Below are positions 2,237-63,494 of a DNA stretch of 64,000 nt, one piece after another. Below the pieces are notes generated by a model that had not been told where the DNA came from, made no database searches, and saw only the letters and a list, made by a program, of their open reading frames with translations. Positions within the stretch are counted from its first letter, which is position 1. Every line of letters starts with the position of its first letter. Source of the DNA: Acidimicrobiaceae bacterium (GTDB taxonomy: Bacteria > Actinomycetota > Acidimicrobiia > Acidimicrobiales > Aldehydirespiratoraceae); contig VXTM01000029.1 of assembly GCA_009837445.1 (NCBI GenBank), positions 1 through 64,000 on the forward strand. The letters run 5' to 3'. The translations under genes were made by a program, and so were the position numbers.

Positions 2237-3172
2237 TTATGGCCGTGCTGAGAGCACGACCGGGGTGCTGGCGGTGACGTGAATCACGTCGCGGCGGTTG
2301 CCGTCGGTGACGCTGAGTACCATGTCGGCTTCGAGCCGCTCGCCGAGACCGACTTGCGGGCCGATCACCGGACGCTCGAAGCCCATGCCGAGGCCCCTGA
2401 CCAGCCAGTCGTTGGCAGTCGCGGCCGCGGCCAGGTCAGCATGGGTTGCGCCGTCGCGGCAGGCGTCGGCCAGAGCTGTCGAGCCAGCGCGACGGCCGTC
2501 CACGAAGACACCGCCCACTCCCCCCTCGTACAGGTCACGGATCACTCCGATGTCGACGGAGAGCCCGTCGCCGCGACGCTCGGCCCGTATGCCCGACGAC
2601 GGGACTGTCACCCCCCGCGCGGCCAACGCCTCGATGGCCGATGCGACCGGATCAGCGCTCTCACCGGCGTTGAGCGCGGCCTCCGCCCCGACCCAGGCGG
2701 CCCGGCAAGCTCTAGCGATCGCCTCGACCTCGCCGGGCAGCTTGTGGCGACGCACGCCGGCCATCAGGTCATCGGCTGCCACCACGTCGGCGTCGGGGGC
2801 GAAATGGGCCGCGGCCCGGTCGAACGACGGCGTCAACTCGTCCACGCCGATGCGACCCGCCCCCGCCAGGCCGTCGATGGCCGCCATGGACGCGGCCATG
2901 ATGCGTGGATTCCAGGTGAGGGGGTAGAGATCGTCGAAGCTCATCGGGGGCTCGATGCCGTCGTCCCAGCTCGACAAGGCGTGGACCCGCCCGGTGGCCC
3001 CGACCACTATGCAGCCCGCCCCGAAGGGGCGGGTACCGGCCGTCCAGAGCCGGCGCATGCCGCACACGTATCCCGCATTGTCCTGGCGTCCCAGCACGAG
3101 CACGTCGACGCCGGCGGCGGTCATAGCATCCAACACCCGCTCCCGCCGGGCCGTCACCAGGTCGGTGCTCAT
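2237..3172 (-). CDS. M24 (creatinase/aminopeptidase P-like) family protein, apparently catalytically degenerate
   Basis: 311 residues. It has a creatinase-type N-domain (RRERVLDAMTAAGVDVLVL) and a shortened pita-bread C-domain. The site where active M24 enzymes have D-x-G-x(n)-D reads VDIGVIRDLYEGG. The metal-binding histidine motif HGxGL is replaced by WLVRGLGMGFERP, and the C-terminal FEP and E-x-E ligands are missing. I infer it does not bind the usual metal pair and may act as a partner or regulator. Its start overlaps the stop of the preceding intact M24 gene by 4 bases (ATGA), so the two are translationally coupled and may form a heteromer. Confidence 0.75.
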   Translation of the reverse strand: MSTDLVTARRERVLDAMTAAGVDVLVLGRQDNAGYVCGMRRLWTAGTRPFGAGCIVVGATGRVHALSSWDDGIEPPMSFDDLYPLTWNPRIMAASMAAIDGLAGAGRIGVDELTPSFDRAAAHFAPDADVVAADDLMAGVRRHKLPGEVEAIARACRAAWVGAEAALNAGESADPVASAIEALAARGVTVPSSGIRAERRGDGLSVDIGVIRDLYEGGVGGVFVDGRRAGSTALADACRDGATHADLAAAATANDWLVRGLGMGFERPVIGPQVGLGERLEADMVLSVTDGNRRDVIHVTASTPVVLSARP

Positions 3173-60887: not shown

Positions 60888-61450
60888 CGCCTACACCTCG
60901 AGGGGCATCTCAGAGTCCATGGCGATGCCCACACACGAATCCTAGGGCACAACTCGCAACGACATTCTGGCCCCAAGGAGATCCGTACAGCACCCGCTCT
61001 GCGCGCCGATGACACGAGCCAACCGTGCTCCTACGAACGCTTGCTAAGCAATGGCTAGGAGGAGCTCGGCGGGATGGGGCTCGGGTCGAGTTGATTGTGT
61101 CTGGTCGCCGAGTGCACCCGGTTCAGCCCCCAGGCGAGTCAGCTGCTGCCGACCGTTGATGACCGCTCCGGTGGCGGACCGTGATGGTGCGTCGGCGGCG
61201 TGCGCGGGCCCCTGGCGGATCTGCTTAGGCGGTTCGATCATGTGAGGACCCCGCCCCTCGAGCACCTCCCGCCTGCCCTGATGGGTACACCTACGGTCGC
61301 AGGCCCAGCCCGACAACATCATGTCGTCAATTGGTTCGTGGGCCAGCCTTGTGACAACGCCTCGATGTGTCGGCCCTGACCATCCACATGTTCGCGCCAC
61401 AGCCCCGCAGGCTTAGCGGTCCGGCTAGGGATCGTCTACGGTGCCGGGTG
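60888..61450. other. Gene-poor stretch
   Basis: No protein with recognisable features is supported here on either strand. The open frames present are short, low in recognisable motifs and overlap each other. I see no tRNA, no transposase motif and no clear terminal inverted repeats. The region leads into the structured element at 61451. It could be a decayed gene or mobile element too far degraded to name. Confidence 0.5.
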
Positions 61451-61561
61451 CCGTTCCAACGCCGGGGGGATCTTGCCGAAACCCCCGGTACCAGTCCAGC
61501 CACATAAGGGGTGGAGGGCGTCGCCATGGTTCCCTTCGGGGCTGGACAGGCGTTGGAACGG
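61451..61561 (+). ncRNA. Candidate structured RNA, three-way junction, upstream of the DUF2510 gene
   Basis: An outer stem of 13 bases pairs CCGTTCCAACGCC (61451-61463) with GGCGTTGGAACGG (61549-61561) perfectly. Inside lie two further stems: CCGGGGG (61462-61468, sharing two bases with the outer stem) with CCCCCGG (61482-61488), and GTCCAGCC (61494-61501) with GGCTGGAC (61540-61547). The latter encloses AAGGG (61506-61510) with CCCTT (61532-61536). This gives a compact three-way junction 37 bases before ATG 61599. No known riboswitch or RNA family is recognised. Confidence 0.6.
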
Positions 61562-61598
61562 CAAACCGACACCCAACCCCGCACCGGAGGGAGCCACC

Positions 61599-62348
61599 AT
61601 GCCCGACAGCGATCCCCAGCTGGGCGAGTGGCATCCCGACCCGACCGGCCGTTTCAAGCTGCGCTGGCAGCGTTCATCAGGCGAGTGGACACACCACGTC
61701 TACGACCACGACGGCGGCTCCCACACCGACCCCTACACGCCCGAACCGCCGCCGAAGCCACGGCGGAAGCGCAAGATTTGGCGGCGGGTGTTCATCGCAT
61801 GGGGTGTAGTGATGGTCCTGATTTTCGTGATGGCTGCCGTAGGAGCACTGATCGAATCGGACCCCGACCCCGCGGCCACCGCCCCGCCCACCACCACAAG
61901 GTCAGCGGCTGTCACACAGGAGCCTGTCGATCCGACCACGGCAAGGGCCGTCGAGCGGGACACAACGACCACGACACGTCGCACCACAACAACCACGACA
62001 GTGCGGCGCACCACGACCACCGCTCCTGCGGCGACCGATGAGGAATGCAGCGCCCGAGCGACCGCGTTCGCGATACTGCTCCCCGAAGTCACCGACTGGT
62101 TCGACACGCTGGCGCTGCAAGCCTCAATCGGTGACCTCTACGGAATGCAGGAAACCTACGACCTCCTCAAATGGGCGATGGTGGACCTGCCCGGCCTGAG
62201 CCGCGAACTGCTCGATGACTGCGGACACCATTTGACCGAATCTGAGCTGCGCGATGCTCGCAGCGGTCTGCGCCAAGCCGAGTCAGGATGGCGTGAGATC
62301 CAAGCCGTGTGCCGGTCTGACCTAGCCGCGCTGGGGTTCGACTGCTGA
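61599..62348 (+). CDS. DUF2510-domain single-pass membrane protein
   Basis: 249 residues from ATG 61599, with GGAGG at 61586-61590. Residues about 8-42 (GEWHPDPTGRFKLRWQRSSG, then WTHHVYDHDGG) match the short DUF2510 domain. A Lys/Arg-rich stop (PRRKRKIWRR) precedes one hydrophobic helix (about 64-88). Then comes a Thr/Arg-rich linker and an extracytoplasmic helical domain (SARATAFAILLPEVTDWFDT, LLDDCGHHLTESELRDARSG) with three Cys. The function of DUF2510 proteins is unknown; they often face the membrane cytoplasmic side as modules. The structured RNA upstream may control it. Confidence 0.75.
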   Translation: MPDSDPQLGEWHPDPTGRFKLRWQRSSGEWTHHVYDHDGGSHTDPYTPEPPPKPRRKRKIWRRVFIAWGVVMVLIFVMAAVGALIESDPDPAATAPPTTTRSAAVTQEPVDPTTARAVERDTTTTTRRTTTTTTVRRTTTTAPAATDEECSARATAFAILLPEVTDWFDTLALQASIGDLYGMQETYDLLKWAMVDLPGLSRELLDDCGHHLTESELRDARSGLRQAESGWREIQAVCRSDLAALGFDC

Positions 62349-62380: not shown

Positions 62381-62554
62381 ATGACTGAACCGAAGCCCCC
62401 GGATCGGCGGGACGGCTGGGACGACCGCGATTACACCCCCACCCGGCCGAGCTACAAGAATCCAATCACCCTCCAAGGGATCGAAGACACCATCCCCGAG
62501 GACCTAACCAACGCCGTCCTTAACTACCGACCACACCGCCATGATCAATCCTGA
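62381..62554 (+). CDS. Small unknown protein
   Basis: 57 residues from ATG 62381 to TGA 62552-62554. It begins MTEPKPPDRRDGWDDRDYTP and continues NPITLQGIEDTIPEDLTNAV. It is hydrophilic, Asp/Arg/Pro-rich, with no family recognised. It starts 32 bases after the DUF2510 gene and overlaps the following small lipoprotein gene by 14 bases, so the three could be one transcript. Short, so moderate confidence. Confidence 0.5.
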   Translation: MTEPKPPDRRDGWDDRDYTPTRPSYKNPITLQGIEDTIPEDLTNAVLNYRPHRHDQS

Positions 62555-62786
62555 CCCCGAGCCTTCATCACCAAGACAGTGGAGAGTCGCCATAGCCACA
62601 GCGGCAATAGCCGTGCTCGGCCTATGGGCCTGCCAAAGCACCACAAGTGACGACCCAACACCACAAGCCGAGAAATGCACCGAGTATGAGGGATATGCCT
62701 GGGCAGGCGACTCATGCACAGCCCGCAAACGCGCTGCCTGCCGCGACGCCGAAGCCACCCTCGGCATTAGACCGTCCCATTGCTAG
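62541..62786 (+). CDS. Small predicted lipoprotein
   Basis: 81 residues from ATG 62541, overlapping the preceding small frame by 14 bases. An N-terminal hydrophobic stretch (WRVAIATAAIAVLGLW, about 14-29) ends in LWAC (Cys31), a plausible lipobox. The mature part has four more Cys (KCTEYEGYAWAGDSCTARKR, then AACRDAEATLG and a C-terminal Cys), suggesting disulfides outside the cell. No family recognised. Confidence 0.55.
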   Translation: MINPDPEPSSPRQWRVAIATAAIAVLGLWACQSTTSDDPTPQAEKCTEYEGYAWAGDSCTARKRAACRDAEATLGIRPSHC

Positions 62787-62862: not shown

Positions 62863-63255
62863 TCAGTGCTGGAGTTCGACCTCGCAACGGATGCCGGGAG
62901 CCTTGGCCAGTCGCTGGTCGGAGGTCAGCAGCGTCGCTCCCGTCGCCTCGGCCAGAGCGACGTAGGCGGCGTCGTAGACAGTGAGATTGTCCCGAAGCTC
63001 CCAGCAGCGCGGCAGCAGTACCCGGTGATCACAACGGGTCACGGGCAAGACCGCGAGGTATCGCAGGGCGGACTGGGCCAGCGCTTCGGCGAGCCCCCCA
63101 CGGCGCACCAGCCCCCTCAGAGCCGAAGCGACCTCGAGGTCGAGCAGGTGCGGTGCCAGTGCCGCCTCCCGGGTGATGCGCCGCAGGGCCTCAAGATTGC
63201 GATCGCTCGATCCGCCGACGGCCTCGGTTGCCACGCTGGCATCGACAACGATCAA
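62863..63255 (-). CDS. PIN-domain toxin (VapC-like)
   Basis: 130 residues from TTG 63255, which overlaps the antitoxin TGA (TTGA, 63255-63252). PIN acidic motifs are in order: IVVDASVATEAV (first Asp), LAPHLLDLEVASALRGLVRR (Glu), DNLTVYDAAYVALAEATGA (Asp) and LLTSDQRLAKAPGI (last Asp). This is a standard VapC pattern, expected to act as an RNase blocked by its antitoxin. Its length and spacing are normal. Confidence 0.88.
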   Translation of the reverse strand: MIVVDASVATEAVGGSSDRNLEALRRITREAALAPHLLDLEVASALRGLVRRGGLAEALAQSALRYLAVLPVTRCDHRVLLPRCWELRDNLTVYDAAYVALAEATGATLLTSDQRLAKAPGIRCEVELQH

Positions 63256-63494
63256 TGCGACTCGCGATCGGCCCGGATGATGTCCACGATCAGCTGCGGG
63301 TCGAGATCCGACGAGCCATGGGCGAGAGCCTCCACCCGTTTGCGAGCGAGCAATTCCTCCGCGCTGGCGAGGTCCGCCTGCCGGCACACCGCGTCCAGCA
63401 TGAACTGCTGTAGCGATTGGCCCGCGGCGGCGGCGCGAACCCGGAGCTTGCGATGGACATCGTCGGGGATGTGCTTGATCTGGATGGTGGCCAT
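63252..63494 (-). CDS. Ribbon-helix-helix antitoxin (FitA/VapB-like)
   Basis: 80 residues. RHH pattern MATIQIKHIPDDVHRKLRVR then AAAAGQSLQQFMLDAVCRQA, with a toxin-binding C-terminus (LDPQLIVDIIRADRESH). Upstream, 63511-63538 has repeated TAGCGC/AGCGCT elements in the likely promoter, an operator candidate. Its stop overlaps the toxin start. Confidence 0.87.
   Translation of the reverse strand: MATIQIKHIPDDVHRKLRVRAAAAGQSLQQFMLDAVCRQADLASAEELLARKRVEALAHGSSDLDPQLIVDIIRADRESH

Follow-up and report, generated by a model that had tools for sequence, protein, structure and literature searches.

A pseudoknotted leader RNA with a predicted two-state Shine-Dalgarno exchange, found before exported and membrane protein genes of Acidimicrobiia

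The 64,000-nucleotide stretch of Acidimicrobiaceae DNA analysed here (contig VXTM01000029.1, referred to as the window) contains, shortly ahead of a membrane protein gene, a noncoding segment (61451-61561) that has raised the question of whether it encodes a cis-regulatory RNA, a small RNA or the remnant of a mobile element end, the three options left by the original prediction. The segment folds at −65.7 kcal/mol, compared to a mean of −45.5 kcal/mol for shuffled sequences (z −5.8; 0 of 200 shuffles). Its closing stem P1 is perfect as had been noticed, but comprises 15 instead of 13 bp, whereas both internal stems (P2, about 61464-61486, and P3, 61494-61501 with 61540-61547) as well as the gap of 37 bases between 61561 and the ATG at 61599 have been found as described. 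The extent of 111 bases is appropriate for the junction, but the functional unit runs on to the Shine-Dalgarno (SD) sequence and the start codon, which had been omitted. The three-way junction accounts for the 5' two thirds of a leader RNA of ∼150 nt, which reaches from the predicted transcription start to the start codon (Table 1).

Table 1. Parts of the leader RNA and of the adjoining gene in the window, with the evidence for each.
Feature	Position	Strand	Evidence or remark
-10 promoter box TACGGT	61437-61442	+	Predicted transcription start ∼7 nt downstream, at the first base of P1; TANNNT in homologues
P1, 5' strand of the closing stem, 15 bp	61449-61463	+	Compensatory changes at 13/13 modelled pairs
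P2 hairpin, loop CUUGCCG	61464-61488	+	Compensatory changes at 5/5 modelled pairs
P3, 5' strand	61494-61501	+	Compensatory changes at 7/7 modelled pairs
Strand A, in the P3 loop; partner A' (pk1) or alternatively strand C (P4, anti-anti-SD)	61508-61523	+	Permutation tests
Strand C, GGUUCCCUUCGG, anti-SD strand	61528-61539	+	12 bp with 61584-61595; pair counts
P3, 3' strand, immediately 3' of C	61540-61547	+	Partner of 61494-61501
P1, 3' strand	61549-61563	+	Perfect complement of 61449-61463
Linker strand A', pk1 partner of A	61566-61580	+	Permutation test
Strand C', CCGGAGGGAGCC, SD sequence, pk2 partner of C	61584-61595	+	Pair counts
Regulated gene, 249-aa predicted single-TM protein with Thr/Pro-rich linker	61599-62348	+	Without Pfam match

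Blastn searches over 60 relatives have returned partial matches from the same genus, mostly covering the 3' half and the SD region. Read together with their flanks, the good matches all lie before start codons and share a common plan, in which P1, P2 and P3, with GGYUCCCUUCGG in the P3 loop, are followed by CCGRAGGGAGCC ahead of the start codon. A degenerate pattern of strands C and C' has matched, within the window's family, in the window's genus only, and the reversed pattern has given 0 matches. Applied to named genomes, the same pattern has led to Acidimicrobiia MAGs, including Candidatus Poriferisocius and records with the prefixes RHO, IRC, COS and APA, in addition to chance matches without P1. 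These prefixes would fit the sponge hosts sampled in PMC8163846, and the carriers, judged on the named records, are mostly sponge-associated actinobacteria. A covariance model started from 8 sequences has been enlarged to 37 (alignment A4) and then 57 (A5), and searches of the order have been positive in 15 of 397 genomes with model R1 and in 26 of 397, from four families, with model R3. A fifth carrier family lies outside the order but inside the class Acidimicrobiia, and in a phylum sample of 296 genomes the window's own genome has been the sole carrier. Carrier genomes hold one to six copies; the five copies in the window's genome comprise the studied element on contig C31, two on C7 and one each on C46 and C39. 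In Candidatus Poriferisocius anaerobius (L077), two divergent copies lie within 1.3 kb at 1821-1957 (−) and 2983-3122 (+). A true presence in Terriglobia and Gemmatimonadetes (L079 and L089) has been rejected: each of these genomes, of 5.7 and 6.2 Mb, holds one copy, and the gene behind L089 resembles that behind L032 of the window's genus, so that mis-binning of sponge contigs explains these cases most simply. The L079 and L089 contigs both come from the metagenome series SB0661, and the Acidimicrobiia-like L089 gene makes mis-binning probable.

The original prediction had made the fold depend on compensatory changes among homologues, and these have been found at all modelled pairs of P1, P2 and P3. 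In the A5 alignment (56 distinct sequences), 95.6% of the pair cells form and 32 of 37 pairs change on both sides, whereby the pair counts of P1-P3 derive from alignments fitted to that same structure. Cells with changes on both sides number 430 against 106 in shuffles, the sequences being related and the cell counts therefore not independent events. When the structure is slid along the alignment, pairing falls to 36-50%, and the covariation score of 0.573 drops to 0.180 in shuffles and to at most 0.115 in the slid versions. The domain from P1 to P1' reaches a mean z of −6.4 over 54 homologues; we have relied on this value and on the covariation rather than on permutation figures for P1 and P3, which are biased as the stems had been chosen for best pairing. 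The sequences of P1 are wholly different between copies while complementarity is kept. Because the P1 sequence is free, an independent alignment by MAFFT and RNAalifold has missed the stems and recovered pk2 only. P2 is absent from some distant members, and its loop commonly reads GCCR in close relatives. Only two unpaired positions stand out as conserved, a C (93%) three bases ahead of strand C and, behind P1, an A (73%); the nucleotides of the junction and the loops are otherwise poorly conserved.

Beyond the nested stems, the P3-loop strand C, GGYUCCCUUCGG, pairs with the SD strand to form pk2, which is 97-98% paired although its pairs have never been entered in any covariance model. Changes on both sides occur at 7 of its 12 pairs; one family has lost one pair in concert on both sides (GGUCCC with GGGACC), and further compensated forms have been found outside the models in L173 (GGUCCUCCUCGG with CCGAGGAGGACC) and L166 (GGUCUCCUUCGG with CCGAAGGAGGCC). 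Its mean stability of −24.8 kcal/mol exceeds the −11.0 kcal/mol of the SD with the 16S anti-SD. For pk1, formed by strand A and the linker after P1, own partners have beaten all 20000 permutations (44 sequences). A third helix, P4, would combine A with C: the hairpin of C with real A is more stable than those with shuffled A (mean z −1.62, n = 44), and own C fits better than the C of other members, a fit reached in 19 of 20000 permutations. P1, P2, P3, pk1 and pk2 are thus borne out by sequence comparison, whereas P4 is moderately supported, at a level far below pk1 and pk2, and could partly reflect the G-richness of A. In the window, the nested minimum-energy fold, in which pseudoknots are impossible, corresponds to the A:C state. 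Since A cannot pair with C while A:A' or C:SD exists, the leader would possess two mutually exclusive states. Two further contacts noticed by eye have been discarded, namely a kissing of the P2-loop GCCR with strand C, which appears in one clade while P2 or the loop motif is absent elsewhere, and a pairing of the CAU ahead of strand C with the start codon, which does not track start-codon changes.

The position of the element relative to promoter and gene is equally regular. TANNNT is located 12-15 nt ahead of P1 in 48 of 54 homologues, many of which show TTG at the -35 position, and from this fixed distance of the -10 box we expect the RNA to start at P1. On the 3' side, nearly all homologues run to the SD, followed by ATG, GTG or TTG within a few bases. 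A small RNA is unlikely for an element that continues into the SD and the start codon, while the cis-regulatory option has gained strong support from the constant location before a gene, the compensatory changes in all stems, the SD pairing and the fixed promoter place.

Most genes behind the RNA encode predicted exported or membrane proteins. A strongly hydrophobic stretch within the first 80 residues has been found in 32 of 39 non-redundant downstream proteins compared to 23 of the 120 ORFs that served as background (p 2e-12), where the exported or membrane call is a simple hydrophobicity rule and the background ORFs are crude. Lipobox-like signals are likewise enriched, in 11 of 39 compared to 6 of 120. 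Of the nine loci found only by the R3 search, seven again start, by eye, like exported, lipo- or TM proteins. Pfam has assigned S-layer homology, RCC1 repeats, trypsin-like, TM2, DUF732 and DUF4352 domains to some of the proteins; the others have no match above cut-off. For the window's own gene, the predicted membrane protein has been retained with a single TM segment, but the DUF2510 assignment has been dropped, as no such Pfam match exists at E ≤ 5. An exception to the trend comes from one clade (L021, L025, L030 and L031), where a short ORF of 27-31 codons (MPETA... or similar) behind the leader overlaps the start of a long ResIII-type helicase gene, and may be a leader peptide with translational coupling. 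The lipoproteins behind the RNA in L110, L023 and L028 share the motif LGNRFEWC...W or similar without a Pfam family, and are possibly an undescribed protein family. Past the regulated gene, the window holds a small putative lipoprotein gene (62541-62786, +; 81 aa, Cys-rich, no Pfam match above cut-off) and, 0.5 kb away, a pair of FitA-like ribbon-helix-helix antitoxin and PIN-domain toxin (62863-63494, −).

We hold with very high confidence that the RNA is real and with high confidence that it acts on the gene behind it, and it is probably a cis-acting leader that controls translation initiation of this gene by a strand exchange between two states. Transcription would start at P1, and P1, P2 and P3 would form the three-way junction. 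In one state, A would pair with the adjoining C (P4), leaving the SD free and the gene translated; in the other, A would pair with the linker behind P1 (pk1), and the released C would form ∼12 bp with the SD (pk2), which would keep the ribosome off. P3, pk1 and pk2 could presumably meet in a second three-way junction. Judged from the sequences, hiding of the SD appears as the best-supported mechanism of translation control. The exchange itself is likely, and we infer its use as a switch in which pk2 would represent the OFF state. The balance between the states would be set by a cell-envelope- or host-related signal, which may consist of a ligand, a protein or some physical stimulus. In its widest and more tentative form, this is a signal-sensing leader class that exchanges four strands (SD, anti-SD, anti-anti-SD and the competitor of the latter) and coordinates an exported and membrane protein regulon in sponge-associated Acidimicrobiia in response to an envelope- or host-derived ligand.

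The two-state leader would include a strict metabolite riboswitch as a special case, in which one small molecule, bound in a pocket of junction and pseudoknots, would stabilise one state. Although the complex conserved fold with its two pseudoknots, the several copies per genome and the SD within the expression platform are all compatible with such a pocket, we consider it rather unlikely given that very few unpaired bases are conserved, that P2 can be absent, and that no enzyme or transporter shared among the downstream genes has been found by Pfam that could point to a metabolite. The poor conservation of unpaired bases favours an architecture-driven control over a classic small-molecule pocket, although a ligand may still take part. 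About equally doubtful is the other special case, in which an RNA-binding protein, a trans-acting RNA or temperature (as for an RNA thermometer) sets the two states. No conserved protein-binding motif has been seen besides strands C and C', and simple melting could not open a GC-rich 12-bp SD helix of about −25 kcal/mol; nevertheless, a conserved architecture with free sequence and targets that form a regulon-like functional group of membrane and exported proteins would suit this explanation.

A structural 5' end, mainly protecting the mRNA or fixing a low translation without any switching, appears improbable. P1 starts at the predicted +1, as is the case in 5'-stem mRNA stabilisers, but pk1 and pk2 would be superfluous for protection and yet are kept by compensatory change, and an A:C alternative would be pointless. 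That the locus is a mobile element end (for example a REP or IS200-like hairpin), a decayed repeat or a decayed coding sequence can hardly be upheld. The 15-bp inverted repeat and a TTG-started frame that reads through the element into the gene had spoken for such an origin; however, P1 differs completely among copies while it stays complementary, the flanks are unrelated, the exact element occurs as a single copy in its own genome with no near-identical copies at unrelated sites, and the exact-pattern search of viral contigs has given 0 matches. The lengths from P1 to the start codon, moreover, vary freely and not in threes. An integron attC site, which the P1 palindrome resembles, has also been rejected: integron integrase matches are below the model cut-off and of the same kind in all control genomes, and the element ends at an SD.

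The two-state leader is best read as a new class of cis-acting translational regulator without an Rfam family. The original prediction had recognised no RNA family in it, and Rfam 15 (4227 families) has yielded no match in the window at the gathering threshold and none in 61300-61700 at E ≤ 1, and in 20 divergent homologues nothing on the element, with a tRNA elsewhere as the only match. In the literature, we have found no paper linking Acidimicrobiia to an uncharacterised riboswitch candidate. The family comes with a covariance model that is ready for use, a defined target set and a mechanism of two states that lends itself to testing. Regulation at this level is almost unexplored in host-associated bacteria, and a large, strongly covarying leader RNA before exported and membrane protein genes of uncultured, mostly sponge-associated actinobacteria could give access to it. 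With its free sequence and rigid architecture, the family is also well suited to exploring the limits of divergence among pseudoknotted switches.

Among known systems, the actinobacterial c-di-AMP (ydaO) riboswitch is likewise a multi-copy leader before cell-envelope protein genes, but the folds are unrelated, and the ydaO Rfam family has no match in the window or its relatives. Flavivirus xrRNAs also possess a three-way junction in which the loop of the third stem reaches past the closing stem to pair with bases on its 3' side; the likeness is one of topology alone, as the present leader is bacterial, located at an mRNA 5' end and covers the SD. In the SAM-II, preQ1-II, preQ1-III and c-di-GMP-II riboswitches, the SD is hidden in a pseudoknot with an upstream loop directly before the start codon, as proposed for the SD strand here. 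The leader departs from these types in that its P1-P2-P3 junction is larger, two helices connect the loop with the tail, few unpaired bases are conserved and Rfam has given no sequence or structure match. In the anti-SD/anti-anti-SD platforms of riboswitches and T-boxes, exclusive pairings determine whether the anti-SD is joined to the SD or to another strand, and the leader would resemble them in the mutually exclusive pairings of its anti-SD strand. It has no T-box match in the Rfam search, and differs from these platforms in two respects: the anti-SD is carried by the loop of one of the junction's stems, and its competitor A can also pair with A' in the tail.
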